A DNA stretch of 64,000 bases from Bolinopsis microptera (lineage: Eukaryota; Ctenophora; Tentaculata; Lobata; Bolinopsidae): NCBI RefSeq assembly GCF_026151205.1, contig NC_087072.1, forward strand, positions 20,178,103 to 20,242,102. Reading direction: 5' to 3'. The notes under the pieces are model-generated. The model was not told where the DNA came from. It searched no databases and saw only the letters and a list, made by a program, of their open reading frames with translations. Shown in pieces: positions 1 to 41,300 of this stretch. The translations under genes were made by a program, and so were the position numbers. The first letter of the stretch is position 1. Every line of letters begins with the position of its first letter.

Positions 1-87
1 TCAGTGGAGAAGCTACAACGGTACTAGAGCTAGATCACCTCACTCCAGACAATCATCGCCTCCCTCCAGAAAAACATGCTATACGGG
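1..87 (+). CDS. Candidate alternative 5' exon, truncated by window edge
   Basis: Open frame ending in phase 2 (last codon split after GG) at a GTGAGC donor. The visible part is Arg/Ser/Pro-rich (TRARSPHSRQSSPPSRK). Its ATG would lie left of the window. A second open frame ending in phase 1 also exists, so the frame is inferred from the phase shared with the exons downstream. It suggests the first-exon array extends beyond this window. Confidence 0.35.
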
Positions 88-298
88 GTGAGCTATAATT
101 TGTGTATCTTGACTATAGTTAACTCCTTAGCGTGTATATCATAGACCTTATTCTTTGAACTGGCATCCGGACTTGAAGTCTGCTAATATAGGAGGAAATA
201 TATTAGTGTAGGTATAATATGGTAGAATTGTACAGGTTGATCTTCGGGGCCGACTGTTTAAAATAACATAAACCCGCCACGCAAAGGGTTTATATAAC

Positions 299-404
299 AG
301 ATCATCCCGCGCTAGCGGGATGATCTGATAAACACATACGAGTGCGCGCAGCGCACGAGTTTTGTGTTAATATGTAATCCCGAAGCGCCAGCTGAGGGAT
401 TACA
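299..404. repeat. Three adjacent hairpins
   Basis: 299-326 is a perfect 12-bp stem (AGATCATCCCGC) with a GCTA loop. Next is a GTGCGC/GCGCAC stem flanked by AACACA/TGTGTT. Then 373-404 is a 9-bp stem TGTAATCCC/GGGATTACA. Probably the end of a small mobile element. Confidence 0.6.
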
Positions 405-470
405 TTCATTTAGCCCTGAGCGTGAAGTGTTTATGGATTATAATTATCTCCGGCGATTTCGACAAGGGAT

Positions 471-758
471 TTATACTTTAGAAGAGAGTGATAAAATAGT
501 TTTTATTTCGGAATACGGGTCTGATTTTAGTAATATCTTCATCTTCAAGTCAAATCCAACAGAAACAAGAAAGCACTCTAAAATGTAGTTGAGTCGTTGA
601 ACAGGAATTTGGTCAAAGTCATTGAAGTCACGAGCAAATCTGGATGACTGAAGCCAAGAATTAAATTTGTTTAGAGCCCAGTTGTTGACTCTAACTGTAC
701 TGTCCGGAACACGATTGGAAAGCAGTTCATCAATCTGAATGTCAAACCGATCTGTCAT
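471..758 (-). pseudogene. Possible Crypton-type tyrosine recombinase fragment
   Basis: A 95-aa minus-strand frame with VPDSTVRVNNWALNKFNSWL, like the N-terminal core-binding region of Crypton/DUF3504 recombinases (a 'T..a...aL..F..WL' pattern followed by a helical NYILECFLVSVG). The catalytic domain is absent. Downstream lie three hairpins (299-404). Recognition is by pattern only. Confidence 0.3.
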
Positions 759-965
759 AGTGGAGCAATAGCTTGAACGTTAGCAGGAACAAGAGCTGGA
801 AGGAGAGCAAGCAAAACAATACTATTTTTAGGGCACGGACAAGGGTAGCTGGCTAGTCGCCAACTTCTCACGCCACGCGTTGGAGAAATTCCAAGAATTA
901 GCTGCTTTGGCAACGTTCCCAGGAATTTGCGTGTAAAAGAAGTGGACGGTTACGATGTTTCATAT

Positions 966-1049
966 CACGTGGTGCGCTTTCGTGTCACGTGGTATAGACT
1001 CGGCGTATGCTATTGGTGGCACGTGGTACGCACGTGACGCGCCCACGTG
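966..1049. promoter_or_regulatory. Cluster of five CACGTG E-boxes
   Basis: CACGTG at 966, 986, 1020, 1031 and 1044, with another at 2462. CACGTG is the palindromic core bound by bHLH-zip factors (Myc/Max, USF, MITF/TFEB) and bHLH-PAS factors. It could be a promoter for the first exon at 2119, about 1.1 kb downstream. Confidence 0.45.
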
Positions 1050-1152
1050 ATCGCGCGTCTAACTGTTCTACTATTATCGAGTTCTAATCAGCAGTATCAT
1101 TGATTATTTTAAGTCGGAGAATTGAATGATAAACATCAGTTACGACTAAAAA

Positions 1153-1272
1153 GCGGGCCGGGTTTATACAAATTTCCGGGGCGGGATGATATCACCTTGA
1201 GATGTTTATCTAACAGCGGGCCGGGCTGAGTGATAATATGATCCCGCGTCGAAATCCCGGAGATATTTATAT
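1153..1272. repeat. GC-rich inverted repeat
   Basis: GCGGGATGATATCAC on one arm pairs imperfectly with GTGATAATATGATCCCGC on the other. GCGGGCCGGG occurs twice. It shares the GCGGGATGAT word with the hairpin at 315, so both may be remnants of one MITE family. Confidence 0.45.
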
Positions 1273-2118
1273 CTAAATCAGTGGATCTAATCCACATTAA
1301 GAGATTAAGAGACGGGTAATCTGCGAAGAATCGTTTAAAAATAGATATGATAATCTACTAAAATTATCAGAACGACCTAGAGTACGAAGATCATCTCTAC
1401 TTCATTTAGAATACTGTCGTAAATTAAGTCTGAATAAACGAAGCCCATATTAAAACCGTCGAGTACAATTAATCAACACTAGTCCTACAAATACAGTTCA
1501 TCTCATTTGATAAGAGCTGTTTGTTATACTTTTAGAGGGTCTTATACGAGGGTCTTGTTATATGTTCCAGTACTTCAGTACGAGTTGCAGAAACAATCCT
1601 GCTTTTGTTGCAGTTGTGTTTTGTTGGATCGACCATTCGTGCTCTTAGTTTAGTTTTAATTACGTTTAGTTTATTTTAGGGTATATATCGGATTTCTTAC
1701 GTTTGGAAATTATTCACCACTAATCGGCGCAGTTTCCTAATTTCTGAAGCTCTCTCAATGACCTTTCTTAGTCTTATGCATTATTAAGCGGATAATGTAT
1801 CTAGACAACGTTCAACTAGTAGGCTATTTGCATATCAACGTCCTTCCATTAATAATTTCGAAACGTCGGTTCAAGTATATTGTTTTGTTGCAGTATACAT
1901 ACGTTCAAATAATCGCCATTCTTTTATACCTATACCTGATTTTGTATATAGTCTGCGTTATTGTAATACCTTAAATCAACCTCAGGTTGATTTTTGTAAA
2001 AAATTTCCGTACAAACCATGTTGATGGGTACACAGAGCAATCTTTTGACACAAATATTACACATTTCTGATTATTGAAACTTACAAAGAGCAATAGTAAC
2101 GAATACGCCCCAGTCATC

Positions 2119-2243
2119 ATGCTGCTAAGTACCACAGCCGCCACCACCTCCACAAACGCCTACAACAGCCGACGCAGAGCCGCCATGAACATATACGACG
2201 AACAGACCCTAAAGACGGCCTCCAGGTCCTACAAGAAGTTCGG
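2119..2243 (+). CDS. Candidate alternative first exon, N-terminus MLLSTTAATT
   Basis: A GC-rich island in AT-rich surroundings. ATG at 2119, 41 full codons, then a split codon (GG) at a GTGGGT donor, phase 2, so it reads into the channel exon at 38331. The N-terminus is MLLSTTAATTSTNAYNSRRR: a Ser/Thr/Ala stretch, then three arginines, then a mixed tail rich in K and R. It resembles an inactivation-ball layout. A donor four bases further on is possible. Confidence 0.45.
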
Positions 2244-4807
2244 GTGGGTACATCATGTTATCCTCAGTGGGTACTGTGAGCGTTATAATAACCACTTAGG
2301 TCAATATACGTACTTCTTAGGTAGGAACTGAGTTCTGACCACTGTGCATGTCTACAGTGCGTTTTATAGCATTGACGGCTATACAGCACGAGGCATGCGG
2401 ATTTCATTTGGTCTGATACCTAGTTTGACTATTGTCGTGTACGTGATGCCGCTTTGTTTTGGCACGTGACCATGGTATTTGAGATATAAGCTGATGGTCT
2501 ATCTTAAATTTGCATAACCCCCAGCGCGAGCATTAGTCAAGCATATTATTAAATACGATAATATGCGAAGACCTACAAAGTTTTTTACAAATATTTTCAT
2601 AACCATATGATAAAACTTATGAAAAAATGTTGGGTTAGTTAGTATTGGGTTTATCATTAATGGCGATAACGTGTTGTTGCCAAATCCCATAAGGAAAATT
2701 AGAGATACTGTGGACTAAAGTTTAGAATAGGACAGGGTGACTTGGAAATACTGATTCTGAAGAGCTTTCTCGTGAAGTTAGTTCCTGATGACGATGAAGA
2801 AGACATATATTATTAATCCACTGGTTGGACATTTTATAGAAGCCAATAGTATATTTGTAATTGTTTAAATTCTTGAGGAGGAGTTTCGATAATGAGCGTT
2901 GAAAACTAGCGCTTTGGCGAACGGAGAGACTTCTCTTTTAAAGTTTGATATTTAAGGTCGTTTAGATGTTCATATAAACGTTGTAACTTTAATTAAGTGG
3001 ATTTGGTTCATTAAACTGTTATCTTTGATAATCAATATGATCCAAAATTAGCAGATAATTGCATCTTACATGATACTATACTCATAAGTTTTCATATTTT
3101 GCATCCTGTCGTAATAGAAGCCATTGTTACATACAAATATTTAAAGTCACAAACTTTTTTCAGTTTTATCTATTTTGCTTTTTTGAACGGACTTTACTAT
3201 GATGACTTTTGAATATTTGACAAATCTGCTGACATGATTTGATGGTTTAGACATTCAAAACCGTGAACAGTGTTTCTTGTTTGAGTATTTGTATCTAACT
3301 ATGTAGCAATCTGAATCCATCGGCCGGTGTTCGGGTGTTTAGTGTTTTTGTTTTTGAGATTGATGTACATTATATGCAGATTGTTTCGTAGTTCGTACTT
3401 TTGACTTTTGTACATCGGTTCATTTGGGGAAATGAAGGTGACTCTGTATCAGAGAGGAACTTGAGGGCTCTGAAATGCCTACCAAGTACCATTGGATCCC
3501 TACAGAGTCTGATCATCTTTAAAAACATCTAGCTCAAGCAGAGGAATTATGATATTTCATCAAATCCCACTATCTTTTATTGGTGGAAGGAGAGAAGGGA
3601 TGTTGATTAATAATTCTACGCTTGTTATCTTGAAACCAAGTTTAATACGTTCTTTATTTAAGTATTTAACGGACAATCGATTACTCTGACCCTATACTCT
3701 GACAGAGACCTTAACACAAACGAGAAATGTAACCTGCTTCCTAAGGAATGTCACCGTGATCACAACAGTTTTCATCGATAACTCGTCAGGGGAAAGAAGG
3801 AATTGTAACGCTATGTCATGTAACTAGAGGTAGGCGCTTTTTTAGAAAATCTTTCCGTTTGAATTATAAAGTGATGAGGTATAAACCATGTTTGTATTTG
3901 TAACTCTTTCCTAAGATAAACGTAAAGAAAGGCCCGGTAACACTGTTAATTTCGTTCTAAGTATCTAACCAATGTATCAATAGCGAATAGCGACACTAAT
4001 TAATGAACAATTGTCAATTTGCAAGTTGATGAGATCTCAAAGCGCAATAAAAACAGCGTTCGCCGTTCACATCAATTATAATCTAATCACGAACTTTCAC
4101 ATAAAAATGCTTAGGACATGCCAATGGCAATTAATAATACTATAGAAAGTATAGAAACTTTGACAACGCACACAGCTGTACGATAGAAGTCTTAATTGGG
4201 AGGTAAAAGAACAGAATGACACATGGCGCCACGTGAATTATTCTGAATTTGATCTACAATAAGCTGACCCGCCAGCCGGCGCCCGACCGGAGCCCGACCG
4301 GCGCCAGTATCCGCTCGAAATCTATAAGTGAAATATTTTAGTTATATCTTCATTTCTTTTCGAACGTTATTATAACATACTGTCCAAACTCAGGATGCAT
4401 AACACGAAGAATTTGTTGTAACTTTGTATAAAAAGCATTATAAATACTGTGTAATGAATCGAGAACAGTGGCATAGCGGGTCTAAAACGGAAGCTAATCA
4501 ACAACATTGCATTGTAATAGTGGCTTGTCGTTAATTTTAGTAGCACTGGCATTGTTTACTCTGTACATAACAGTTCTTAGTAACAATTTTAAAATTCTGC
4601 TTGATTGATCTTAATTAATGCAACCAAAAATGTTAACATTGAGAGTTGCTGCTTTGATAACCAAAATCTATTTTCAAAGATTTGAAATTCTTTAAAATTG
4701 CCCAAACGCAGCCATAATGAATTAATGAGGCCGTCCACAGTTTGGTCCGCATCTAAATAGACTAGTTATGAATTGTTGAAGGGTTGCAAGGTTGTGAAGG
4801 GTTGCAG
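2244..4807. other. No feature seen
   Basis: AT-rich and intron-like. No convincing exon, RNA gene or repeat. Confidence 0.5.
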
Positions 4808-4947
4808 ATGAGGGTAGACTTGACAGGACCGTCTGATCCTGCAACCTCCCCTGAGCGAGGCTACTCAGTTGCTCCAGCACATCAAGATAGCAGGTGGAAT
4901 GTGCCCCGAAATGGTGGATTGTCATGGTGGGATACAGCATTAACTTG
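4808..4947 (+). CDS. Candidate alternative first exon, N-terminus MRVDLTGPSD
   Basis: Starts with an ATG directly after a CAG, so it could be a first exon or follow a phase-0 exon. 46 codons, phase 2, donor GTGAGC. The peptide (MRVDLTGPSDPATSPERGYS at its start) is Trp- and Pro-containing and only weakly basic, so it is the least ball-like of the long islands. Another frame after an internal CAG is also partly open, which lowers confidence. Confidence 0.4.
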
Positions 4948-7429
4948 GTGAGCTTAAATATTATAATTCTTGTATCAAAATATAAGAAAATTTGATTATT
5001 TGTATGTGAATAAATATTTCGAGAAATGTAGCGAAAAATTGTTATTTTTCCTGAGTAAATATCCATTTATCAACACCACTGCTAATCCAATATGGACCAC
5101 CTTCGCCAAACAAACTAGCCGAAGCCTAATAATACTGTGAACTAGGACAGTTTAATATAAACCTCGATGGCAGCCGAATAGACCTTCAAAAATAACTAAG
5201 CAATTCATTTACAAAAACTTGTTTGAACTTTGCCACGCTTCAATTTTATTTTTAGAGTTGGTACCTCGCTACAGGTATAATAGTATGTACGAGAGTGCAC
5301 TATATCTGTCGAAAATTACCAGCTTAAAGAACCCTGAGTGCTTCAATAAATTCTCAAGGATCACGACCCACTCAAAACGTTAATCATGGCCCTAACTCAC
5401 ATTCTTTAACCATGCTGTCTCGAAATAAAGTTTCACCAAGTTAGCCACATTCAGCATCTACCCTGATTTACCTATAATAATACAATGTTTCTCTTCTAGG
5501 TTTAAAGATGATGTTCCCAGTTCCTTTAAATCAACTAGTAAAGTTAATTGACTATTGAGTTAGTTGATTCGTAGTCTACCGTCTATCATGAAGCATAATC
5601 CCAGAGTTTAGAGCCAAGACTAGTGGCCAGTAAATATGGTCTGGTAATGTCCACCTCGCTTTTCTTACTTTCACTGATTAGATAGGTATTAAGGTATTGC
5701 AGTATTGAACCCGCGGTAAGCTCTTTGGTTCAAATAATACCTAATGGGCTTACGCTAGCTTAGGTGAAGTTATCAGTATCCATTCGGAATAAGTAACTAT
5801 CTTGCAAGGAAATAACAAAGGCCTTTCAAAACTATTTGAAAGCCTTTGAAAAATACAACCTGTAGTATCAATTATATGTTTTCCGAACCTCCATTACATC
5901 CAGTATTACGATTCCTCCTGTCTTAGCTTTCATGATTTCGAAAAGTTTAAGACAGGTCTTCTGTGGTTGACTTGAAGCAGTTTTAGAGTAAAGAGTTAAA
6001 CTAGACAACATGATTGTAGGGCGTAGGCAATTAAAATTCGGAGATACTATAGTTACAGACTAGATCAGACTAGTTACAGAGTAGATCAGGTTCAACTACA
6101 AGTCTTTGTCTTGTAGTAGGCTACAACTGGATCATATCTCAGAGATACAGGTCAGGAAACAGCTAGTCAAAACTAACAAAATGTCTGACGGCGGCGACCA
6201 ATCATGAGTCTAGAAAGACGAATGAGTTTTTGTTGTCCGGAGTCGGCTGTTAGTTAGGGGTCCGGTTCAGGGTGTCGGAGATAGGTGCTAACAGAAACTA
6301 GGCAGACTCACCCTGGGCGTGCTAAGTCTGTGCTAGCTTACTAATAAGGGTTAACTCTAGGAATGTAGCAATGATTTATATTAATTCTTGCAGTTTTATG
6401 ATAGGTTATATATAGGATGCCATATTCCTGTATGGCATCCATTTCTAAAAGCAAATCAAATTATAGATTTATAATTGGTTATCTAAATTGACTCATATTT
6501 CTGTTAAGTATGCCAAAAATGTCCTCTTATTAAAGAGCTGAAAGAAGTTGTAACTATGCTGATTGCTGCCCCTAGAGTCGAAAGCCTTAATACAGAAGTT
6601 GAAAGCCTGACTGATTCTATGAGATGAACTTTATTTCGAGAGTCAATTTTCCTGGCCAGGGTTAAACATTGAGTCTAACCTAAGGTTTTGAATCCATAAT
6701 AAATATTCAAGTTCTAGACGATTATATATTTTTTAATCAACTAACTTAGATAATTCAACTCGGTTTCAGTATGGATAACCCTTAACGGTTAACACCTTCT
6801 GTTACTGGTTTTCAGCTGTTTATGCTATGTCTCTAGTAACTACTCTAATTCTAAAAGTAATAATCGCACATAATTATGGAAACTATGTGAGCCTTAAAAA
6901 TAACCATTTTCTTAACTAAAGTAGTATTTGATTTCTCCCAGATATTTCTAGATTTATGAATGACTTGGTTTTCCAGGACAATTTTCAGATTAATGTTAAG
7001 CTGTAAAGATTGTAAACAAATTGCCCCGCTGATGTATGTCTAGAAGCCGTCTGTTGTTAGCTGCTATCTAGTGCTTCAGTTATCAGTAATACTACTACCA
7101 TTAGATAGAGGAGTATAAGTGATCTTGTGCTGCTTTATTTAAATAAACATGATACAATATATAAATACCGCCTAGTGACAATGCTCATGCGAAAGCGAAT
7201 ATTTATCACCAATAGTTACATAAATTATTGAGTTTATAACTAATCACACAAGCTATAGATACTTAGATACTTGCACTTGCGGTGCTATCACCAATTATGT
7301 ATGGTATTATCGATTGTCATCGGTGTCTCTTCTGCCGTACTTTTAAAAGCAAGTTGAAGGAGTAATATAAATAATATCTCCGACAAGATATGCTGGAAGG
7401 AAACTTCCTTCTGTTCTCTGTTTTTGCGT

Positions 7430-8450
7430 TGAACATCGTGTTTTATACTTATAGTTTGGGTAATGGAAATTCAATTTTAATTACTTTAGTTCAACAGCTA
7501 AATTTTAGTGGTGTTTGGTATTACACTTATAGTACAATCTATGTTTATGGGCAATTGGATTTATAGAATCACGGAAATCAAGATTACGGCTATTACTACT
7601 ACTATACAGAATTACTGTACTTACTGTACTTAAAATTAGAGGGATCGAACTATTTAACCAATTAAATTATCATTTGAGGAAGCATACATATAATTGCACG
7701 GTTAGCGTAATTATATCTTTACGGGAGTTCAGAACAATCGTGACTCATGATGGATGTTATTGGAATCCCCAATCGTATGGTACCTTAGTTATAGGATGTG
7801 GCTCACTGTATTTCGGTGAATATTATACTTAAATATTATGATAGTTGGGGTATTTTAAACTTAATTGCTTTAGTTCGATAGATATATATATATATATACA
7901 CCACTAATATATATATATATATATTAGTGGTGTTTGGTACTAAAGTTATGGTATTGTCTATTTTTATTGGGAATTACATTCAAAGTTTCGTGAAATTCAA
8001 TATTACTGCTAGACATTTCATTAAGATAAGAAAGAGTTAAACGAATTTACTTAAAATTAAATTTTAAGCTACTAAATTTGTATGAGGGAACATCGACTTG
8101 TGAGTTGTGTGGTCACCGCAATAATACGGCAATAATACGGGTTCGAAAATAGACTACTGGCGTCTGGGACGATTGTGACCAATGATGAATGTTACTGGGA
8201 CCCATTTATATTATATAATGACTTAAGTCTACCTTGAGATCTTATAAATATAAGGTATACTCATGGTTCACACTCACGTGGGTATTTTAAGAGGTTATAC
8301 ACACCTTACACCAATGCTATTATTGTACATTTAATTTGATGAAAGTTTCGAATCAAATCAAAGCCGCATTTATCAAAATACGTCAAGTTCATCCGAAATT
8401 ACTTTAGTTCATTGACTATTTCCAGCTGACTTTCACTGGTAGTTGTTAGT
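7430..8450. repeat. Diverged tandem copies, period about 400 bp
   Basis: The block 'ttactttagttca ... tagtggtgtttggta ... cgtgactcatgatggatgtta' recurs at about 7480, 7870 and partly 8400. The copies are strongly diverged. Confidence 0.5.
7898..7933. repeat. Perfect 36-bp palindrome with (TA)n core
   Basis: ACACCACTAATAT and its complement flank a TA run, with a further TA run just upstream. It is probably cruciform-forming and lies inside one of the 400-bp copies. Confidence 0.7.
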
Positions 8451-9581
8451 TGAAGACGGATAAACAATGTTATTTGAAAAGTTCTGAAACTCACAACATA
8501 TCATATCACTTGTGTGTTCCAGAACCCCAGTGGAAGTTAATAGTTAGGATTTGTTAAATTTTATCCTGCAAAAACAGTTGCGTGTATAGACTACAGGCCC
8601 TATTTAAAAAACTTTCTATGACCGATGACGTTTGAATGTGTCTTGCTGATTACATCTAATCGTTCAAATGTATGGGCCTAGTGACCGGATCACTTACAGA
8701 CCGAGAATTAGATTTTAGCTAGACCAGTGTACGGCATCTCGATTAGTCACATACGTTTTATTTTATTAAGTTTAAACTTCAATGCTTTTTTATTATTGCT
8801 GATTTGATATAACCAAGTCTAGACGGATAGATTGCAACATGGTAAAAGTGAGAATATTTGAAAATCGTAATTATCTAAAAATAACTTTAAATCAAAAATG
8901 GATCGAATGGTTGAGACATAAGAGGCATGAACTATTTAGACAGTGAACGTGGCATTCAATTCCTAATTAATTTACCTACGTATTTCCAACAATCCCACAT
9001 TTAACCAGCCAGCGACCAATTACAAGAAGCTGAAGGATGTTTTACTTACCACGATGGTTAAGGTAGTTTGTACCTGACTGTCTTCAGCTGAGGCTCCGCT
9101 TCACGAGTTGAGCTCCTAACTCAAGGTTACATTTGGATGAGTAGACCGTGGAGTCCGTAGATCGGCTCAAGAATTGTTGGTTTAAGGCAAGGCTCGGACC
9201 CCTAACTTTAATACCACCATCCGATTGCTGCCACAACACTGGCTTTTACAAGAGGACTGACATCTTCTATACAGATGACCTGCAGGTCTGCCTGTAAGAT
9301 GATCGTTACGGGCAGTAAGGGGCTGTCATGTATTGAGCTCACATTTATCGGCCTTTTTCAAATCTTATGATTTACCTCCTTGGATGCAACCAGTCCCTTT
9401 TAAATCATTTTAGGTAAGGTACACTAAAAGGAGAAAACTTTTGAAAATCAAAACAATAGCATGATGTTTTGAGTTATAGAAATAAAAATGGCTAAAATTG
9501 ATCTTGTAGCAACTGTCCATAAATAAACCTGTTAATAACTAATGGCTGTTGAGTTTCAAATTAGGAATCTATTCCGCTGGA

Positions 9582-19016: not shown

Positions 19017-19165
19017 ATGATGAGCCTGGCCCTATCCGCCCAAAATGGGATAGGGCCCAGTACGGGCGGAAGAAGGACGGGGATTCGCAAGAGCCCTTCA
19101 GAGATGGACCTACTCCTGTCAGAGATCGGAGTACCTAGCGTCAGACAGAGTATTTCCACCCGAGC
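19017..19165 (+). CDS. Candidate alternative first exon, N-terminus MMSLALSAQNG
   Basis: GC-rich island with tandem ATGs, 49 codons, phase 2, strong donor GTAAGT. The N-terminus MMSLALSAQNGIGPSTGGRR is hydrophobic, then Gly/Ser-rich, then basic (GIRKS follows), close to a classical ball peptide. A stop lies in frame just upstream, so the first ATG is the natural start. A second frame is open for most of the island but stops before the donor. Confidence 0.5.
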
Positions 19166-21050: not shown

Positions 21051-21178
21051 ATGATCAATGCAGGGTTACTCGGAAGAAAGCGAGAACAGGTCAGCTCTCG
21101 GAGAGTCGGAATAGACTACTCTGCTCCAACCATCAAGCCTCCTCATCTTCTAAAGCGACAACCTCGACTATCTTTCAT
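21051..21178 (+). CDS. Candidate alternative first exon, N-terminus MINAGLLGRKRE
   Basis: ATG at 21051, 42 codons, phase 2, donor GTGAGA. MINAGLLGRKREQVSSRRVG is the clearest ball-like N-terminus in the array: seven small or hydrophobic residues followed by RKR and later RR. It is the first of at least five islands packed into about 1.8 kb. A second, phase-0 frame is also open in this stretch. Confidence 0.5.
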
Positions 21179-21685: not shown

Positions 21686-21749
21686 GTAAATGTCCATTCT
21701 TCAAGATCTGGCGACGCCTTTCATTTTGGTTTACTAGTTTACTGTAGCT

Positions 21750-21865
21750 ATGGCGATGGGTGCGTTATACATCAAGATGCCGGTCAAACTCCGGCGGCTG
21801 ACCCGGTACATACCTGGGACGGGGGTACGAGCCATACCTCAACCTGGGAAGGAGTCAGTTGATGA
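21750..21865 (+). CDS. Candidate alternative first exon, N-terminus MAMGALYIKMP
   Basis: ATG three bases after a TAG that could also be an acceptor; 38 codons, phase 2, donor GTGAGT. MAMGALYIKMPVKLRRLTRY has the hydrophobic-then-basic order expected of a ball, followed by a Gly/Pro-rich linker. A second open frame stops just before the donor. Confidence 0.5.
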
Positions 21866-22404: not shown

Positions 22405-22538
22405 ATGATAGCAGCTGTATCAGCTATAAAACAGCGTAGAAACTCGCAGAGAAGGTACTTCGGTTACATGAAACCATGGAGTGGCACCGGGAACACAGGT
22501 TCTTCAGGATCAGCCTTCGCATCTTTGGTTTTAGCTGG
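22405..22538 (+). CDS. Candidate alternative first exon, N-terminus MIAAVSAIKQRR
   Basis: Preceded by a good acceptor (TTTTTGCAG at about 22369-22377), so an untranslated leader exon may exist. From ATG 22405: 44 codons to a GTAATA donor, or 16 codons to a GTACTT donor at 22455. Both end in phase 2. MIAAVSAIKQRRNSQRRYFG is strongly ball-like. Confidence 0.5.
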
Positions 22539-25539: not shown

Positions 25540-25685
25540 ATGTACGGTATTTTGACGGCTGGGCAGAACCAGGGGAGACGACGCAGACCTGGTGCCCAGT
25601 TTTCTGGGTCCAGCTCGGACGTGAATAAGCCACCATGCATGCTTCAGAGGAGGAAAGCAAGAGCTTCCATCAGCATCATTGACAT
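25540..25685 (+). CDS. Candidate alternative first exon, N-terminus MYGILTAGQNQ
   Basis: ATG at 25540, 48 codons, phase 2, donor GTAAGA. MYGILTAGQNQGRRRRPGAQ has a hydrophobic tip then four arginines. The internal GGGCAG at 25566 lets the 3' part (25567-25685) also serve as an internal exon after 25335-25361. The other two frames are closed here, so the frame is secure. Confidence 0.5.
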
Positions 25686-26783: not shown

Positions 26784-26926
26784 ATGATGATTGCCGCGTC
26801 GAGGTGGGCCAAAGTCCGGAATGAAGCGAGGAGAGTGGAGGAGGCTTCTACATCTAGACAGGCGCATCTGGATGACATTGTTCAAGAACTTGTTAAGAAG
26901 AACCAGCAGTCGGAGGAAGACACAAG
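26784..26926 (+). CDS. Candidate alternative first exon, N-terminus MMIAASRWAKV
   Basis: Tandem ATGs after a possible TTCTAAG acceptor, 47 codons, phase 2, donor GTAACC. MMIAASRWAKVRNEARRVEE runs from hydrophobic into basic; the rest is a charged, helix-prone tail (DDIVQELVKKNQQSEED). A short downstream segment at 27287-27347 is also phase-compatible and would end in a stop. Confidence 0.5.
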
Positions 26927-27730: not shown

Positions 27731-27882
27731 ATGTCGGTCACAACCTCTACCTCCACCCTCAACGCCCGGCGGTCGTCGTTCGCACCGCCAGACATGTCCA
27801 ATGTACAGTTCCAGCACCGCCAGTCGGTTAATCAGCACTATGCCAGAGCCTTCAGCTTACCTAATGGTACCCTACCAAGCTC
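27731..27882 (+). CDS. Candidate alternative first exon, N-terminus MSVTTSTSTLN
   Basis: ATG with A at -3, 50 codons, phase 2, consensus donor GTAAGT. MSVTTSTSTLNARRSSFAPP resembles the islands at 2119 (Ser/Thr run then Asn-Ala and Arg) and 34465 (MSVITS start), hinting that these exons arose by duplication. Confidence 0.5.
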
Positions 27883-30011: not shown

Positions 30012-31014
30012 GTGAGTGGATTGTTATATTTAATATTATGTAAGCTAGTTAAGCTGGTCTACTTGTTACCTCTAAAGGTATGTCGGCATGTTTCAAGTAT
30101 ATTTTGTTAATGAAAAATTTAAGAAATAGTCTTTTTATTTTGAGGTCGTAAACGTGATTTCGTTCAATAGTTTCAACATTGTGCTCACACCTGATATGAA
30201 TAGTCATTAGTCATACTAGGAAATGTCAAGGTCATGCTCATATGGGTATAAATATTATAGTGGACTAAATTATGGCCAATTTAAACACACATGCTTACCT
30301 CAACGGAAGGACTTGGCAGTTGACGTTTGAGATAACTCCTTGTGTCAAGAAACCAAAGGTTGAACCTTCTTTACGCACATCTAAGGTTTAACATGCCTTA
30401 TGGTGTTGAAATGAAACATTCTATCGCCAACAAGGAACTCAGATCTACACATCAGTATCATTAAACCAAAAATATTATATCATCACTCTCATTCACATTG
30501 TACCATCGGGCAACATGATCAGAGTGTCTGAGGAAAGCAACATTATCAGACTTTCAAGATTTCACGTGCAATAACGAAAGTGCTGACAACTGTACAATCT
30601 TTCTACTCTTATCTGTGTCTATGCTGAATACTAATAGGTATTGTTGGCTAGTCACCAACTGGAATCTGATTCTTTTCAATAGATCAATGTAAAATTTACC
30701 TGCTACTAATTAAATTTCCAACAATCTAGTTATCCGTCTATCACGGTGTAACAGGAAGAGGCAATGGTCCGATCTCCTTGCTCTACACCGGGCACATGAT
30801 AACCGTTAAATTGCAGTTTAATTAATAGTTAATTACAGCGGTACTGAATCCGAACGGTCTATGAAGTTACATCACTTCAAGCAATCTTCTGATGGTACAT
30901 GCTCACTTCTGATTATCATAATTCGACTATTACTTCTGCCAGACGTACCGTCAATTTACCGCAATCAAAAATACAATTTTGTTGATTTGTTTCTGATGCT
31001 CAACCACCACCACC

Positions 31015-31208
31015 ATGTACTTCTCAATCTCTGCAAAGAACCATCCCTCCGATCTACAATCCCCCCTCCCGAGGGACCGGAGAACAAGTAGTAGTTGGAA
31101 ACAGCGCCCACCCCCTCCCAGCTCCCAACTGAGTGCAGTGCTGGTGACAGACTCCCACGGAGAGAAGGGAGACGGCTGGGCCGCAAGGAAGTGGCATGAG
31201 AGCGGACT
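31015..31208 (+). CDS. Candidate alternative first exon, N-terminus MYFSISAKNHP
   Basis: ATG in a CACC context, the longest island (64 codons), phase 2, donor GTTAGT; a GTGGCA donor at 31191 is also in phase 2. MYFSISAKNHPSDLQSPLPR is followed by DRRTSSSWKQR and a proline run. Several frames are open in this GC-rich stretch, so the frame rests on the ATG and phase. Confidence 0.42.
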
Positions 31209-31270
31209 GTTAGTTGTTCTCATATTCAATTGTTCTTTTTAATGCTATTGTATTTTTCCACTTTGCAGCC

Positions 31271-32356: not shown

Positions 32357-32397
32357 ATGGCTTTGGCGGCCATAATGGCGAACAATTCGGTTCATTG
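32357..32397 (+). CDS. Candidate alternative first exon, MALAAIMANNSVH
   Basis: 13 codons, phase 2, strong donor GTAAGT. The tip is hydrophobic and Ala-rich with no basic cluster of its own. A mariner-like MITE begins 30 bp after the donor. Confidence 0.4.
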
Positions 32398-32427
32398 GTA
32401 AGTTAATTGTATCTATAATCTATATGC

Positions 32428-32892
32428 TATAGGGCTGGGTGACCCATGAGTCAGTTTGCAAACGTTTGGGCTTATAACATTGTTCATGTTTGATACTCAC
32501 AACTTTACAGATGACAATATATACTGTTACTACCTACTCTTTCGAGGAATCCATTGCCAAAATTTTAAAATTCAATTAGAAAATGATCTGAACAAATTAT
32601 GCGAAACGGACTCAACATGACGAAGTGATCAAGCATTTTTTCGGGTGATCAGGAAAAGTGTAATTTGAATGGCCAAACACAATACATTACAATTTGGTTC
32701 GATCTAATCATTTAAAAAATCTTAAAAATGAACTTTTCTGAGAAAAAATGATCATCGTTTTAATTTTATTCGACGGATTCCTCGAATTAGTAATGATTGC
32801 AAGTCATACCAGAAAGAATTATTTTAATTGGGCACACAGGGACTGAGCAATAAGTTCAAACGTTTGCACATTAACTTATGGGCCACCCTGTA
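32428..32892. mobile_element. Mariner-like MITE with about 40-bp terminal inverted repeats
   Basis: The left end TATAGGGCTGGGTGACCC pairs with the right end, read inverted as TACAGGGTGGCCCATAAG. Both arms share TGCAAACGTTTG and the interior continues as an imperfect palindrome (TCGAGGAATC). No ORF of transposase size. Confidence 0.7.
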
Positions 32893-34464
32893 TAATCTGC
32901 ATGTCTCCTTATTAATACCAAGTGCTCGCAACTTCTTTCGTTTCCTGGCAAAATTTCAAAGATTGAAAAGTTTCTCAACAATTCTTAAGCTGAAATTCCT
33001 AGAAATATAGAGGTCAGATATCAATAAGTTGAATAAATTACTTTGTTTATTTTTCTGATCTTTAACAAATTAGCTCAAGAAAACTTTAGGGACAAAAATG
33101 CAGCGGTACATTCTTCGGATGGTATCACATGACCAAACATGCCATATGGTCCATATTGTTTTATTAAGTCTACCAGAAAATTTGTTCGTTTCACAGCGCT
33201 TTTGAAGTTTTCAATTTCTCATCACACCAATACGTCGATAATTCTTGAGAATACGTCTCGTAGAAGCTTTCTGTAGGTAATACCTAATTATTGCAGTCAT
33301 TAAAGAGGAGCAGCCCAACTGTTTTAGAGCATCACTAATGCATCATACAACTTAACTTACTACTTTATCTAAATCATGAAGTACAACACAGTGCTAGTTT
33401 TCAAACTTACAACAATCTTATTAACTGATTTTATAATAAGAATAATCAGCAAACTCCATAGTTAACAATAGCCTCCAATCATATCATAACTTTCAGCCAA
33501 TTAATATGGTCCACCATAGAAAACGAGACAATGAACTTGATACCATACCGAAGAAACATTAATACGTTGAAATAGACACAGCTACAATAAATCTGAGCTC
33601 AGGAGTGAATATTTCTTAAAAACTAAGAAAACTTTATTCAGTCAAAGTGGCCAACAAAATCTGCCTGGGCTCCTCTAATCTGTCTTGGCATGCTTGCATG
33701 TTTTCGTAGTTAAAAGATATCAACCTAGAAATTATTCTAATTTAACTATATTTGTAAAATATTCCTATATCTATGGTAAAATTAGAAAAATTTTGATTTA
33801 GAATACATACAAGTTCTCCGCAGTCAGCACCATAACCATGGGTTGGGTGGCGTGCACGACCAAAATTACCAAAATTACCCAACTTATACTATCTGTCTAC
33901 GCCAATAACACGATTTAATTCAAAATTTCTTCATGACATTTTACGACATACATTTTCGTTAATATTTCACGTAATCACTTTAAACAGTTAAAGTTTGTTT
34001 CGCATCAGCAACTAAAATAGAATTGACTTCGTTCCGAATGGAGTTTCACACTATCATGATTCCAACCCGTTTCACTTGAAATATAAAGTTTATTCTAATA
34101 AGTGCATTTGGTATGACACACCTTGTCACCACATATACAAGCCTGGAATAAGCAGACCAAGATAGAACAGTTGCCGGGCAAAAAGTAGGCAATCAGTTGT
34201 TTGCCCGGCTAAATCAATTTGATCAGCTACATATTGTCACCGCTCCACCGCGTAAAAATACCGTTCAAATTAAAAATTACAAACTATCGACTCTATTTAA
34301 ATTCCATTAACCGGTCCTATTTAAATTCCATTATCGCTGTTCTTCCTCTCCGTCTGTCATTGTATCACAGTGCCATATGCCATATGGTTGTGATTCCTTG
34401 ATTTTATTTTCCAAATTTGTCATTGTTTTCTGAAAGATGTCGGCTTGTTTTGCTTGAAGCTTTG
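32893..34464. other. No feature seen
   Basis: AT-rich intron-like sequence. Confidence 0.5.
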
Positions 34465-34553
34465 ATGTCGGTCATAACAAGTGTGGCTCATAAACGCTCG
34501 GCCAAGGATCCGCACGAGCAGACTTCCTGGGTGCCATCAGAACACAACCATGG
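34465..34553 (+). CDS. Candidate alternative first exon, N-terminus MSVITSVAHKR
   Basis: 29 codons, phase 2, donor GTAAGG. MSVITSVAHKRSAKDPHEQT parallels MSVTTSTS at 27731. This island was recognised only after the phase-2 rule had been noticed and fits it exactly. Confidence 0.5.
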
Positions 34554-36145
34554 GTAAGGGAACCAGGGTAAACTCAACCCTGATGAAATAAGATCATTAA
34601 CTTAACGAACACATCCCTCAGCGGGGGATGTTAATTACCGCACATTACCGCACAGATTACCGCCGCGCGAACATCTGTTTCAAGTATCTGTAATTTAGTA
34701 AACAACCGGTCGGCTCTCCAGAAGTACTACACCTGTAAAGTGTAAACCTGTAAAAGGTAAAAACTATGCTCTGGTAAAACTTTATGGGTGCCTTACCTCT
34801 GGGTTGGCATAACTAGCAAGCTTTAATATGGCTAAACGCCTACCAATATTTTCGCAGTTCGTTTGTTATCAAATTACCGAATTTTTGTTACAATACCTGG
34901 AAATAAAACTGTTTACAGCCGTTACCGGGTCAAATGTTCAAAAGGTACATATTTGACGGTAATTCAAATTGTTTAATTGTGTTTTATAGACGTTTTTGCT
35001 GATTGGATTAAACGTTATCGCACCATTGAGTGAACCTAAATAAATGGTAATGAGTTTAATGTCTCAAAGTAATTAAGATTTATAATTGAATAATCATAAG
35101 ATAAGCCCAATCGTGAGTCGATACACTATCTTTACACTACTTAAAAGCTTATACTTAAAATCGTTATACCTTAAGCTATAGTTTAATCTACCAACATCGA
35201 AATTGTATGATTCGATTATTCAGTATTTCATTATATATATATGTACGCTGCAGTCTACCTTCAACGGAACGACTCCGAAAGGTACATTTTAAATTTGAGG
35301 ATCAATCTGATATTGGCAGCCTTTTTATCTGAGTATCTGTGATGATCGGATTATTTTTGAAGGACAACGATTCATCAAGCATTGAACGAATGATGATCAT
35401 AAACGTTGACACCGTGACCCCAATTTCCCTCAAACTTCGAACTTAAATCAAAGCTCATGGTTAAAATTGGTAAGGGTCGCCTCATTATTCGGGACGTTAT
35501 TCTATTTATGTATCTGTAAGAAAAGTAGGTATTGTTATAAATTTTTGCCGTAAACTTTGCGAATAATTCATAAGTTCGTATATAGCTTCGTCTTGGATTT
35601 TAGGGATTCGTAGGCGAAAGCAAGCATGGACATTGGATAATATCGTTTGAGTGATTCGATGGAAAATGTAACCTGATTGGACATTTGAGATTTCCCTTTG
35701 AATGAAGCAGACGTGAGACATGCATCAATGTAATTGAGTATCCGGAAGAACCTTAGCTCAAATTTACGGTGAAAATCAAATCCTTGGTTACGGCTGGACC
35801 GCAATTATAGAGAAATAGGATACGGTCCGGGGCCAGCGAGACGGCGGTGTCTGGATTACTTGCTTGACATCAGCAAGTCAAACACCAGCTAATGTATACC
35901 TAAAGCCTGTCCACTTTTCAGTCTGCTTGTCAGCGACGTTTTAGTGTTGACAACGCTGCCGCACTTCAGTCCTTGGAACTTTTTCAGTACCCACCGGTCT
36001 TGATAACGTGCCATTACACGCCTGTATACTTCTGAACTCGATAAACGAATATAAACTTCTGATTGCCCGGTGGGAACATTATTTGCCTCTACCTTGCTGG
36101 CTGCTGTAGTTGTCTGACAACCCGCTAGTGTCGTCGAGAGAGAGG
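34554..36145. other. No gene seen
   Basis: AT-rich. A GC-richer patch at 35820-35900 has no supported frame. Confidence 0.45.
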
Positions 36146-36240
36146 ATGAAAAGTCAGTACTTTAACGCCGCGTGCTCTACACACTCCCCGCCTTCAACGA
36201 ATCCCTACGCGAAATTGACAGCTAAGAACGAACCTCGCTG
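36146..36240 (+). CDS. Candidate alternative first exon, N-terminus MKSQYFNAACS
   Basis: 31 codons, phase 2, donor GTAATG. The frame stays open upstream to a good acceptor (TGCTGTAG at 36109), so a longer product or a 5' leader exon is possible. MKSQYFNAACSTHSPPSTNP is polar, followed by a basic KLTAKNEPR tail. Confidence 0.45.
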
Positions 36241-37822
36241 GTAATGAACTAGACGCGCTCTAGATAGTTTAAGTTAACAATTTCTGACATTTCTTTGTTT
36301 ATACTCTGTGCAATTAGTTCAGGTCTTAATAATAATATATAGTTCACCAGTCCAGTCAGCTGTGTGCCGACTTTTTAAACTTTTGATATCGACACATTTT
36401 TCTCGGTTCAGCGTTTACTTATCAACTTATCAAGGCACAAATACCAGGAGTTTAGCAGTGACTCCACAATATACTGAGCAGTTATATTTAGCTGTAGATG
36501 TCCGTGCCAACTGATGATCCGGGGTAGGGAGTACCGGTCAATTCAGGGTCGCGTGTGAGGCTCTGGCCACGGCACGAGCCGTACATCCGTCAGCTCAAAT
36601 CAGGTTTATACAAGAATAATATGATACTTGTTACGGCTCATCTAAGAAGATACTTGATATGCTAACACAGCAACACAATGACTTTAAGCCACCTTAGTGC
36701 CACAGTCTTTTTGGCGGTGTGGTCCACAAAAGTAACTCCAGTTTTAGAATTTCGGTAGGCTTGTTCTACTCCAGTGAATTTTTGTGAAAAAGTCTTAAAT
36801 ATCGTAATCTACACCATCGTAGCCCCATAAACAGTCCCAAAACCCCGATCATGACTCCAGCGCTGTCACAGGACATCATTCAATTAAATTAATTTGCGCA
36901 TGTATTCTATCTCCGCGGCGGGTGCCACTTAAATTTCTCCTTTTTGAAGGTACATTAGGTAGTGCCGTAATGGGTATCCTTCGAGATGATTATATACAAT
37001 ATTATTAGTTTTGCGTTTTGTAGCGTTTCGACTCTGTATTAGGGACGTTAGATTCATCACCGTATTCGAATTTTGGTCGTACGATTCAAGGACAGAAATA
37101 AAACAGTTCTCTCGGCTTCTTTTCAGTGGACCCGATCCTTTTAGCAACACGATCGCCAGTAGATAACATGACAAGCAATTGCATTTATTACAGGTAGATA
37201 ATAAAACATTGAAGTAGTGGACAAAAGTCACCTATTTGCTCGTTAAATCTTTATCATTGACTTCTTGAAATAGGTACTAATACCATTTTATCTATGTGCA
37301 GTACATGATGAAGCGATAGTGTATCATCGTAGTACTAAAACTGTTTGTTCTCAGTTTCATTTACAATAGTATAGTATTCTTAGGCATATATCAATATAGA
37401 CCAAGGAAAACTTTCCTGTTTTAAGTAAGTACTAAATACGTATGTGAGTTCTAGCAATGATCATTTGCCAGTGATTTATTCCAGTGCTAATTTCATAACG
37501 GCTTGAGAAAAGGGATAGGCTAGCCCGTAATAGAGAATTGTGGTAAATTTGAAACGCTACATGACTTATTAAAGACAGGCCATAGCCCACTAGTGGTTCG
37601 CTTTAAGAAGTCCAGTTACACGATAACTAGAGGAACAGCTGGCCGCAAAAACCGCTTAAAGTCACTGACCGTATAACGACTGGGAATGCAACTTGTACGT
37701 TTTTTCCGGGTCGCAGAACTGCATTTTAAAGGTTGCATTTTGCTTAACCTGTACATTGTTCATGTTGTTTCGGAGTGTGCGTGTGGCCCTAAATTTACTG
37801 AGTTTTTTCTCTCGATGCTCCG
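36241..37822. other. No feature seen
   Basis: Intron-like sequence between the last two candidate first exons. Confidence 0.45.
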
Positions 37823-37956
37823 ATGCAGGTAGCTGCCGCAGCACACAGATGGAGGGAGAAAAACCGGCAGTTGTCTGTGGTTCAATCGGATTATGCGACA
37901 GGAAACAAGACCACCGACAGCCAGGGTTCTTATTCAAGAGTCCGGGAAAGAGCAAG
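37823..37956 (+). CDS. Candidate alternative first exon nearest the channel core, MQVAAAAHRWRE
   Basis: 44 codons, phase 2, weak donor GTTATT, only 374 bp before the 38331 acceptor. MQVAAAAHRWREKNRQLSVV combines an alanine/valine tip with H-R-W-R-E-K-N-R, strongly reminiscent of known ball peptides of Shaker and Kv-beta type. A CAG right after the ATG at the end of a pyrimidine run could also serve as an acceptor. Confidence 0.48.
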
Positions 37957-38334
37957 GTTATTACTGGTCGTTAAATGTGTCTACTGCAGACTGCAAAATC
38001 TAGACCCATTTATTAAGTTCACATCGTATTACAAACTGCTTATTAACAGTATGATGTCTAAAGGAAAAATTGTTAAGACGCAGCTGGCGTAATAATTGTC
38101 ATCACGGTTTTCGCGGCAGTAACACCGTATAAATCGGTCATTCTCTAAAACACTTTACCATTAAAGTCTTGTATTCATGTAGTAATTTATATTGTATCTA
38201 ACAGAGAGAATCAGGTTTAAATAGTACCCTCAAAGCAGTCTCTATAATAAGTGTAGTGGTAATTCTAACCCGATGTTACTTATCAGAGACATGGTGTATT
38301 TATCATGATGGTAACATGTTTTATTTTCAGCTCG

Positions 38335-41300
38335 ATGGCGGCGGCGCCGGGTTTGCTTGCACCACGAGCACCGACACCCACTGCCGAGGAGAATGAGGGC
38401 AAGACTGTCGCTAACGGGCTTACGGATCAGAAAGTTATAAAGATTAACGTCTCAGGTAACTGTTTGTAAACTTTTATCAACTATTACCATACCTTAACTG
38501 TATACTGCAATTCTTTACTTTTTGGTTAAAGAATTTGAAATATTGTCCACTGCATAGTATTCCTATTTAATTTGTTAACAACGCAACACTTATTCTTGCT
38601 ACTGTGTTCATTCGTTAACTTTCGGCTACAACGTTTGACTTCAGTTATACTTTTTAGTTAAACAACATAAAATAATATCTGCTTCCAAGTATTGTTACAA
38701 TTAGATACATTTAATTTGTTAGAAGCAACTCTTAATTTTGTGAGTCAAGTATGTTCACTTACAACTCAAAAGCAGGTGCACCCATTGTCCAAGGCATCAC
38801 CACTTCTCTAGCATGTCAAATGTCTAAAATGGTCAAAGTTCGCCGTTTGTAATGGTCTATATTCTCACGGATAGACAGTATCTCAATCTGCCTGATTCGG
38901 GTTCCCGCCATCTTTTACTGCGGCTGGCTTTACCAAATTGTTAGGGAAATTTCCAGCCACATTGCATGTGATACCCTGCTGGAAGGCTTCAACCCGGGGC
39001 GACACTCAGCCCTGTCAGTAGCCTAAATAGGTTACCTACTCAACTGTCGTGATACTCTCTAATATGAAAATAATATCCTAGCCGCTTCACAATCCAGAAT
39101 CCTGTGTCTAGGATCTAGGGTAATTTCCTGGTCTGTAAGAAGCCCCGTGCTAGGGTGTAGCAGTAAAGAATCGACTAAAACGGTTCAGACTTCAGACAAT
39201 AATATAATAATTAAAAGAGGGTTAATATAGTTTGGGAAGTCTGTACTGGGATTTTATCAAGTCTGATAAAATTGTAGCCCAGGGAGGAATATTAGAATAG
39301 TCTGAGTCATAACTTTTCGAGTCCACGCAAGGCTTTACATCAGCTCTTTTTACACTGCCTTATTATTTCCTTGACGTAAAGAAAGTTTACCGACTGTACA
39401 GGGCCTTATTTCCAGTAAGTAGTTTCAACCGATTATATGTCCACTGAGAAGCATTAGCAATTTACCTGTAGCTTCAATCCTAATATCAGAATTAATATCT
39501 GAGAATTGTCTGGAATATTTTCAGACTCTACCGTATTTTTACAGCTAAGTGAATAACTTCTTTTGTAATGGCTATGTAACGGTAAGTGGTGTGTAACTGT
39601 AACCATTTTAGAAAAATGGATAGCCATAACTGAAAATGGATCGTAAATGCCATGAATCCATAAATATAGCCTACGTGGGCAGACTCTATACTATAAGTAT
39701 AACAGTGCTTGAGAATTTATAATGGCTAAGGCTTTGAAAATTGGCGAAGAGATGGCTCAAATCCATTTGGATGCGTGACAGCAATTAATAAACGACTTGC
39801 AACCAAATACTCAAATTTCTGACGTCTGCCATAACAGCTCACGTCATCCCCTTTTGTACCTGGTACCAGGCTGCAATTCAACTGAATTAGGTTGGGTTAC
39901 TTTGCTTCTGGGCATCTTAAACCGTAATAAACCAGAAATATAGATGTTCTGTTGAAGTTTCACCCCGGAAACCATATCTCGATTATAGATCGTTTATAAT
40001 TATAATAGGTAGGATTTCAAGTGATCACTCTATAATACCGGTATGTTAACGAGTATAAGTAGAACCTGCCTATTTAACGGGTGTATTGGCAATTGAGAAA
40101 ATTCCGTTTATTAAGCAGATAAGGTGTGTGACCCAAATCAGTATAATTAAGATGATTTCACACCATCAAACTTACCTAATATCAAATATGATTATTGATC
40201 AATAATTAATCATTGTTATTGATCGTAGATCTAGATTATCGAGCGAGGAGGTAGCTATAATTCATCTTACCCAGTGGAAATCGGGGTTAAAATCGTGGTT
40301 ATTTTGCAATTAAGTGAAAGCTAACGACTGTGACTTGTAACAGTCAACTTTTCTAGGCAGTTTCTAGGCATCCTAAAGACAGGAATAAGCTCTTATCAGC
40401 TCTACCCATTTTCTATGAATTGGCAACAATCCATTTTTTCAGGTTACAAGTTTTACACATATCTGTCGACATTGACAAACTATCCAGATACCCTACTTGG
40501 AAGCACTGATAGGGAATGTCATTTCAACAAGGATATTAACTGCTACTTTTTCGACAGGTTTTTGGAAGTTTTTTTTTTCCAATTTTGACTGTAATTGATG
40601 TTAAATATCTCTTCCCAATTATGTTTTAATTCCATGCAATTAAATATACAAAAATATATTTGCTAATACCTTTTAGTACATAAAAGTAGAACTGACCTGA
40701 AAATTGTGTTTCAGAAACAGAAAAGCTTTTGAAGCGATCCTCAACTTTTACAGAACCGGCCATCTTCAGTGTCCAAACTCTGTGGAAATAAAAGATGTAA
40801 GTTAACTGCTTTCATAAGATTGAGCTCCAATCACTTGATGTGATTTTTCGAGTCATCTGAACGAGCTAACGATCATTTTGATTTTGTTTATATTTTGACT
40901 AGTAATCTGAAATTTCAACATGCACATCATTATTATAAAATTTAAATATTGTGCATTTAAAAATGTCATCAAACAACTTTTTGTTAAAAATTCCACATTT
41001 TTGATGGTAGTTGATTATAAACCAGGCCACAGAACGACTGAATACAAATGTTCTGTTGAACTTGGAACATATTTTCACAAGAAAATAATCTCTCCTGATT
41101 CAGTTTGAAAATGAGCTCGAGTTTTTTCGGATCACAGCCAGAAACAACGAAGAGAACGCGCCCGCCAAGCGGAAACCACCACGACACAAGGGCTGGCCCC
41201 GATGGCAGCGGAAAATATATTATGTGGTAGCAGAGCCCGGCGAAGACATCAGATCCCGAATCTGGGCTTTCGTGGACACATTTTTCATATTATGTTCAAT

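Follow-up and report, generated by a model that had tools for sequence, protein, structure and literature searches.

A stretch of 64,000 nucleotides from the ctenophore Bolinopsis microptera (C1:20178103-20242102, hereafter the window) contains a Shaker-type voltage-gated potassium (Kv) channel gene that probably possesses alternative first exons, some 9 to 14 in number, scattered across about 57 kilobases (kb) upstream of a common phase-2 splice acceptor and in many cases predicted to encode inactivation balls. An earlier note on the window had claimed about twenty such exons, recognised as islands rich in guanine and cytosine (GC). At this locus we found the anatomy of an array, an excess of one splice-site arrangement in one phase, one duplicated pair of islands and one match between an island and a channel paralogue; from these we infer splicing of the islands to the channel, a choice of promoters and block of the pore. 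Negative positions denote the left flank, upstream of the window, which was covered to -60 kb.

In the proposed mechanism, each first exon would supply its own start codon, encode 13 to 50 residues and end in phase 2. A transcript would begin at or near one island, and the donor of that island would be spliced to the acceptor at 38331, with the intervening islands skipped. In the product, the chosen N-terminus would be followed by a linker of about 35 residues common to all variants, and then by the T1 domain and the pore. Many of the N-termini, which are hydrophobic without an early acidic residue and then basic, may act as N-type balls of differing strength, and the remaining ones may block slowly or not at all.

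The constant part of the channel gene

By its sequence, the gene at 38331-45166 (plus strand) is a Shaker-type Kv channel with seven constant exons, entered in phase 2. The exons were assembled from homology and splice sites and carry T1, the membrane segments, the TVGYGD filter and the stop codon. All of the Shaker-type hallmarks are present (T1/BTB_2, Ion_trans, TVGYGD and a charged S4), and the Pfam profile BTB_2 matched at 40439-40639, with further matches to Ion_trans and Ion_trans_2. The acceptor named in the earlier note (TTTTCAG/C TCG ATG at 38331) was confirmed, and the first constant exon is open in phase 2 through to its donor at 38456; the second intron of the channel starts with GTTT, as does the intron side of the donor at the weaker left-flank island -14109. 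Shaker carries a PVP motif in S6; the corresponding place in 44879-45166 reads ALPMTIIV, and ALPMT also occurs in several paralogues. Genome-wide, 52 T1-type matches were obtained at E <=0.01, the gene's own exons included. Judged by T1, the closest relative in the genome lies at C3:4370497 and is a paralogue without introns (63% identity, 537-codon open frame); the solved structures nearest to the protein of this paralogue, used as the query, are Kv1.2 and Shaker.

Upstream open frames end at splice donors in one phase and on one strand

The open reading frame (ORF) of a phase-2 island ends exactly at its donor, because GTAAG or GTGAG gives an in-frame stop (NNG TAA or NNG TGA), and the junction codon formed by splicing, NN+C, is never a stop because constant exon 1 begins with C. 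The position of the stop therefore allowed a test in which ORFs were not chosen by their donor. All first-ATG ORFs of at least 29 codons and a GC content of at least 0.47 between -44000 and 38331 were inspected for a stop inside a donor, which was found in 12/31 ORFs on the plus strand versus 0/25 on the minus strand. Among low-GC controls, counted over -60000 to 38331, the proportion was 16/377 (plus 5/169, minus 11/208). The excess was significant against the minus strand alone (Fisher p 2.5e-4) and against all 402 controls (2.8e-8), and within 18-38 kb the counts were 8/14 on the plus and 0/12 on the minus strand. The motif GTRAG stood at the stop of 9/31 GC-rich plus-strand ORFs versus 4/402 controls (Fisher 8.8e-9), and the plus strand was ahead of the minus strand in 20/20 combinations of length and GC cut-offs (p 0.00063 to 0.057). 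In 13 other pieces of the genome (95.5 kb; 12 near other Kv genes, the remaining piece from contig C110), a stop inside a donor was seen in 2/29 ORFs on the gene strand and 3/34 on the other. Nine of the 12 donor-ending ORFs are listed islands (-19328, 19017, 21051, 21750, 25540, 26784, 27731, 34465 and 36146); island 2119 is absent from the set because its donor precedes the ORF stop.

A blind enumeration within 1-38331, in which ORFs of at least 25 codons were read from their first ATG as far as a donor scoring at least 1 bit, gave the same asymmetry, with 17 ORFs on the plus strand in phase 2 versus 8 and 9 in phases 0 and 1 and 6, 5 and 6 in phases 0, 1 and 2 of the minus strand. Codon usage was scored with a table trained on 3468 codons from Kv exons; to a good extent this score reflects GC content. 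It exceeded 2 in 8/17 of the plus-strand phase-2 ORFs versus 8/34 in the other classes, and the eight codon-positive control ORFs were other frames or donors of islands or belonged to the GC-rich 31015 locus. Density peaked at 19.0-28.6 kb, where nine plus-strand phase-2 ORFs lie, six of them scoring above 2 for codons; each of the other classes contributed 0-4 ORFs. A laxer enumeration over 98 kb (at least 10 codons, donor not below 0, donor and codon scores summing to at least 6) returned 14 ORFs on the plus strand in phase 2 and 7, 4, 6, 3 and 4 in the other five classes. The features looked for in a variable-first-exon array, namely upstream exons with a start codon and a donor in a common phase, are found here. 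The scripts drew on a donor matrix, a hydropathy scale and the recognition of Kv hallmarks.

The same stop codons bear on the idea that the islands belong to an unrelated gene as exons, or are small ORFs in their own right. A stop codon does close every island frame, as this idea would have it; the stops, however, sit inside splice donors. Moreover, 1-38331 holds 98 ORFs of at least 60 codons, and the 18 of these that were compared with Pfam, whole or in part, all stayed below the cut-offs (the top score was 7TM_GPCR_Str at 4725-5066 on the minus strand, E 0.007, 16.2 bits versus a cut-off of 22.4). Acceptor-like sites upstream of the islands were near background (10 in 13 x 120 nucleotides, 7.3 expected), a figure that suits first exons better than cassettes without being proof. 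A search with 18.5-28.5 kb showed no further copy of its islands among the 39 candidates scored out of 182. We therefore regard an unrelated origin as highly improbable. In the left flank, a 249-codon plus-strand ORF at -36.3 kb had no Pfam match, and the coding-like minus-strand ORFs near -45.5 and -47.6 kb are probably a sign of another gene.

Kinship among islands and a match to the intronless paralogue

Island -19328 was first found by blind enumeration; its peptide was then seen to align from end to end with the intronless paralogue's N-terminal sequence, MVFAAYRAMRLMKDQKDRKFVILTQPTL. The alignment has a z score of 5.7, with 6 of 20000 shuffles as good, and the island's peptide scored highest (40, runner-up 30) of all 1394 in 98 kb that begin with an ATG. 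Because identity is low (29% over a 36-column alignment) and each of the two peptides, when searched against the whole genome at E <=10, found only itself, the match is significant within this locus only. An intronless gene whose start corresponds to an upstream island of its intron-bearing relative is the pattern expected from a reverse-transcribed spliced message, and the match at -19328 appears to be the strongest single link between an island and the channel.

The best match of island 21051 is 25540 and vice versa (42 vs 34; 5 of 20000 shuffles); the two have RR.G and KPP..L.R in common and look like clear duplicates. The pattern TTST...N.RR common to 2119 and 27731 (p 0.01) is only suggestive because 153 pairs were tested. 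The motif A-x-R-W occurs within the first 22 residues of 4 of 645 plus-strand starts (-25805, -14109, 26784 and 37823) and of 0/749 minus-strand starts; it was spotted before it was counted, and it is suggestive of a group related by duplication. Most island pairs could not be aligned. An allele comparison for selection was also attempted with C110, a 26-kb contig that looks like an unpurged haplotig and holds an allele-like copy of window 38-3100 at 81-92% identity; the copy is uninformative on selection because of its many one-base indels.

Start context was examined in a hand-picked set of 13 islands that mixed those of the earlier note with newly found ones and did not include 37823. In this set a purine stood at -3 in 12 (background 0.546, p 0.0045) and the preceding 60 nucleotides were free of ATG in 10 (background 0.38, p 0.005); over 100 nucleotides there was no difference (3/13, background 0.20). 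In the 300 nucleotides upstream, the 8-mers AATTTGGC and ACTTTTTC recurred at 4/14 (p 3.5e-7) and 3/14 (1.1e-6) islands, respectively; 3878 8-mers and 344 control pieces were compared, and these p values are nominal, with few copies behind each word.

Ball-like starts appear enriched among the N-termini

Inactivation balls are pictured as hydrophobic and positively charged and as disrupted by acidic residues, with exceptions in Kv1, in the accessible text of one study (PMC3634772). A rule requiring no acidic residue at positions 2-10, a net charge of at least 3 in residues 1-26 and a hydrophobic stretch at 2-9 described 6/12 donor-ending ORFs, 7/44 other GC-rich ORFs and 27/317 low-GC ORFs. 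The enrichment was significant against the pooled controls (34/361, p 6e-4) and against the 44 GC-rich ORFs alone (p 0.022). Ball-like starts thus seem enriched among the islands, not universal, and for about half of the islands a role as inactivation gates is a good guess from peptide make-up.

Elsewhere in the genome, another Kv gene (L003) has a ball-like start, MAGVSAIAAASLRSSDNV. In the 10 kb upstream of six other Kv genes, read on the gene strand in three phases, a single candidate was both codon-positive (>2) and ball-like by a looser first rule (L017 3213-3435, phase 0, MQSILNFISAVNHQRNRT.../MQSILNFISAVNHQRNRTPAPRV..., before the Kv gene at C8:8737345); eight codon-positive candidates were not ball-like, six of them within one tandem repeat. 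The first 140 bases of the minus strand of L002 hold a phase-2 donor-ending ORF (MAGSGARNMKTRGSGSQ..., TGGTGAGAG); the Kv gene at C8:9863388 has its T1 exon a few kb further downstream, and the ORF could be a first exon of that gene.

Results that weigh against the array

A number of results weigh against this interpretation, and the alternatives that they favour were considered in turn. With regard to the balls, the rule given above was chosen after the looser first one, which did not separate donor-ending from other GC-rich ORFs significantly (6/12 vs 10/44). Neither charge alone nor hydrophobicity alone differed significantly between donor-ending and other ORFs, and the absence of acid at 2-10 did not differ either (11/12 vs 33/44 other GC-rich ORFs, p 0.20). 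These results, together with the half of the donor-ending set that falls outside even the stricter rule and the N-termini of 2119, 27731 and 36146, which are rich in Ser, Thr and Asn instead of hydrophobic and then basic, would suit first exons that are real while most of their N-termini set localisation, assembly, stability or chain length and few inactivate. We judge this unlikely, given the enrichment under the stricter rule and the A-x-R-W that follows a hydrophobic start in three islands, two of which are weak.

With regard to the exons, codon scores did not single out the claimed frame. By full codon score it was the top one of six in only 3/8 accepted islands (2119, 21750 and 26784), at 19017 two other plus-strand frames and the antisense outscored it, and in 12 pooled islands the antisense matched the sense on synonymous codons (56.2 and 52.9). 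The top full codon scores in 1-38 kb fell at 19017 (in other frames), 26784 and 31015. We relied instead on splice-site position and peptide matches. Several island donors are weak (19017, 1.5 bits; 21750, 1.2; 22405, <=1.4), and three of the 12 donor-ending ORFs (-36182, -109 and 4808) were not accepted, so that either the test passes chance ORFs or exons were missed. The GC cut-off was picked after the islands had been seen, a concern that the grid of cut-offs answers in part, and all readings are drawn from DNA sequence, of one genome. Such results could mean that only one to three islands are used, the others being decayed or chance open frames, as the weak donors and the five of eight islands in which the claimed frame came out below another suggest. 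This is improbable, since nine GC-rich ORFs ended in GTRAG versus about 0.3 expected from 4/402, although two of the nine (4808 and -109) are unaccepted, and since the codon-positive controls of the blind enumeration all overlapped islands or 31015.

Finally, an ATG lies four bases past the 38331 acceptor and would suffice for an island-free channel. The acceptor might then serve a trans-spliced leader or a non-coding 5' exon, with translation from that ATG and with non-coding islands; a leader was reported on 56% of Iso-Seq reads in another ctenophore, Hormiphora, in the accessible part of that study (PMC8527503). The end of the Hormiphora leader was found at 22 places in the genome with 3 mismatches versus 24 for a control, a result that says little of this lobate's own leader, and within the window it was not above control either. 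Leader splicing at 38331 leaves the excess of phase-2 splice sites and the island-paralogue match unexplained, and it could coexist with an array of first exons. As a replacement for the array we consider it very unlikely.

Catalogue of candidate first exons

The candidates are collected in Table 1. All 16 coordinates given in the earlier note are ATGs that open a frame, and its array holds in outline, in a form smaller than claimed that extends to the left beyond the window. "About twenty" proved too many: eight islands were accepted and four rated weaker in the window, and in the left flank one was good and one weak. Among the twelve islands said to end in phase 2, a donor of positive score stands at the ORF stop of 19017, 21051, 21750, 25540, 26784, 27731 and 36146, and at 2119 the donor lies 28 codons ahead of the stop; 22405 and 37823 are weak. 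The other two were dropped: 4808, whose start is acidic and whose codon score is -5.9 in spite of a donor of 3.7, and 31015, which has no phase-2 donor better than -1.9. Of the four further islands in that note, 34465 was accepted and 32357 is short with a good donor, whereas 31271 (donor 4.9, codon score -6.5) and 31541 (codon score 4.4 over 22 codons, donor -0.4) were dropped. Rejected in the left flank were -43389, which is ball-like with a codon score of 2.8 and a donor of 1.4 and is without the purine, and -36182, -109 and -14875, the first two of these without other island features. Around 31015, window 30954-31240 is GC-rich with coding-like ORFs on both strands (31015 plus, 31223 minus) and without a good phase-2 plus-strand donor. 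The proposal that the islands are alternative first exons of one acceptor draws support from splice-site statistics, start context, the duplicated pair and the paralogue match. That they encode inactivation balls is borne out in part, by the enriched make-up, and half of the ORFs chosen blind to their peptides fall outside the rule.

Table 1. Candidate first exons and constant exons of the channel gene (donor scores in bits; codon, codon score)
Feature	Position	Strand	Sequence	Remarks
Candidate first exon, left flank, good	-19328 to -19231	+	MAFTAFKAVHRFRQVNQEHRKRQFTAMNTPTV	donor 5.3
Candidate first exon, left flank, weaker	-14109 to -14030	+	MIALQNATNQKRAANRWRAKSMARHE	donor GAG/GTTTGT 0.7; AxRW
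Candidate first exon, accepted	2119..2243	+	MLLSTTAATTSTNAYNSRRRAAMNIYDEQTLKTASRSYKKF	donor CGG/GTGGGT 5.4, before ORF stop; codon 13.0
Candidate first exon, accepted	19017..19165	+	MMSLALSAQNGIGPSTGGRRTGIRKSPSEMDLLLSEIGVPSVRQSISTR	donor AGC/GTAAGT 1.5, stop in donor; codon 6.4
Candidate first exon, accepted	21051..21178	+	MINAGLLGRKREQVSSRRVGIDYSAPTIKPPHLLKRQPRLSF	donor CAT/GTGAGA 3.3; matches 25540
Candidate first exon, accepted	21750..21865	+	MAMGALYIKMPVKLRRLTRYIPGTGVRAIPQPGKESVD	donor TGA/GTGAGT 1.2, stop in donor; codon 5.2
Candidate first exon, weaker	22405..22454	+	MIAAVSAIKQRRNSQR	donor 22455 AAG/GTACTT 1.4; alternative longer end to 22538, donor TGG/GTAATA -0.7
Candidate first exon, accepted	25540..25685	+	MYGILTAGQNQGRRRRPGAQFSGSSSDVNKPPCMLQRRKARASISIID	donor CAT/GTAAGA 3.1; codon 6.6; matches 21051
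Candidate first exon, accepted	26784..26926	+	MMIAASRWAKVRNEARRVEEASTSRQAHLDDIVQELVKKNQQSEEDT	donor AAG/GTAACC 3.1; codon 4.3; AxRW
Candidate first exon, accepted	27731..27882	+	MSVTTSTSTLNARRSSFAPPDMSNVQFQHRQSVNQHYARAFSLPNGTLPS	donor CTC/GTAAGT 1.9, stop in donor; codon 6.6
Candidate first exon, weaker (short)	32357..32397	+	MALAAIMANNSVH	donor TTG/GTAAGT 4.5; codon -0.6
Candidate first exon, accepted	34465..34553	+	MSVITSVAHKRSAKDPHEQTSWVPSEHNH	donor TGG/GTAAGG 4.1, stop in donor; codon 2.2; -3 not purine
Candidate first exon, weaker	36146..36240	+	MKSQYFNAACSTHSPPSTNPYAKLTAKNEPR	donor CTG/GTAATG 1.9; codon 1.7
Candidate first exon, weaker	37823..37956	+	MQVAAAAHRWREKNRQLSVVQSDYATGNKTTDSQGSYSRVRERA	only donor AAG/GTTATT -0.3; AxRW
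Constant exon 1	38331..38455	+		phase-2 acceptor; own ATG just past acceptor
Constant exon 2	40443..40557	+		T1 (BTB_2) domain
Constant exon 3	40715..40796	+		T1
Constant exon 4	41104..41604	+		Ion_trans, first membrane segments
Constant exon 5	42266..42354	+		S4
Constant exon 6	42532..42622	+		S5; 3' end uncertain among neighbouring donors
Constant exon 7	44879..45166	+		pore (TVGYGD), S6, C-terminus and stop

Other observations in the window and the genome

Downstream of the channel gene, the window contains a 331-base-pair (bp) repeat at 47462-48237 whose translated reads are similar to a 341-bp tandem repeat of 5.6 copies at 49720-51573, a 377-codon minus-strand ORF at 57023-58153 with a sub-threshold BTB match (E 0.0076), and a purine-rich AGG-type repeat at 61008-62677 with an extreme GC skew of 0.69. 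In another Kv gene (L008 355-912, C2:22711854-22712411), a 93-bp unit that encodes the pore loop with its filter (VTITTVGYGD) is present in six in-frame copies that are 99% alike and open throughout, seen by Pfam as six Ion_trans_2 stretches; the repetition may be genuine or may stem from the assembly. At C12:11782391-11809362 and C3:15860547-15936263, ionotropic glutamate receptor genes form clusters in which the open frames are long.

DISCUSSION

Drosophila Shaker has a few alternative N-termini. The choice among its 5' exons exchanges the ball and chain at the N-terminus and alters inactivation, according to the available portions of two papers (PMC10527868, PMC3519636). The Bolinopsis locus would resemble it in that alternative 5' exons swap the N-termini of one channel; it differs in having 9-14 candidates over about 57 kb and a non-bilaterian host. 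In UGT1 and the clustered protocadherins, as described in the accessible text of two reports, tandem variable first exons precede common constant exons (PMC3325998, PMC1885805). The present arrangement is alike in placing variable first exons upstream of a constant set, but a UGT1 variable exon encodes a whole N-terminal domain and has its specific promoter, whereas here the variable parts are short peptides and the constant part is an ion channel.

Within Kv4 complexes, DPP6a carries N-type block. Alternative mRNA starts of DPP6 give N-terminal variants, as far as the available part of the source describes (PMC3366920). Unlike DPP6, an auxiliary subunit with four named variants, the gene considered here encodes the pore subunit itself. 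Outside Bilateria, Nematostella has several Shaker genes, some of them N-type inactivating; diversity there comes from gene copies, and splice variants of six intron-containing genes could not be cloned, in the accessible part of that study (PMC3519636). In the literature on potassium channel first exons and on ctenophore potassium channels, where subscription papers were thinly covered, we found no array of this size on a potassium channel pore subunit among the top-listed papers, judged by their titles and the openings of their abstracts. Alternative 5' exons and first-exon arrays are thus already known, and the new element would be an array of this size on the pore subunit of a potassium channel.

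A bolder version of the proposal, which we put forward tentatively and consider less probable than the array itself, is a protocadherin-like set of at least a dozen inactivation gates, each with its own start, among which cells would choose and which may mix in tetramers, with effects on inactivation speed. Exon duplication within a single gene would then do what gene copies or auxiliary subunits do in other animals.

If the array is real, nature would have provided one constant channel with a large library of inactivation domains, and one gene could make many channels that differ in how they switch off. Annotations that assume one start per gene would miss most of this N-terminal diversity. 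Ctenophore neural signalling has been proposed, in the accessible text of one article, to have evolved independently (PMC4685580), and ctenophores would diversify their excitability by an exon array besides gene duplication.

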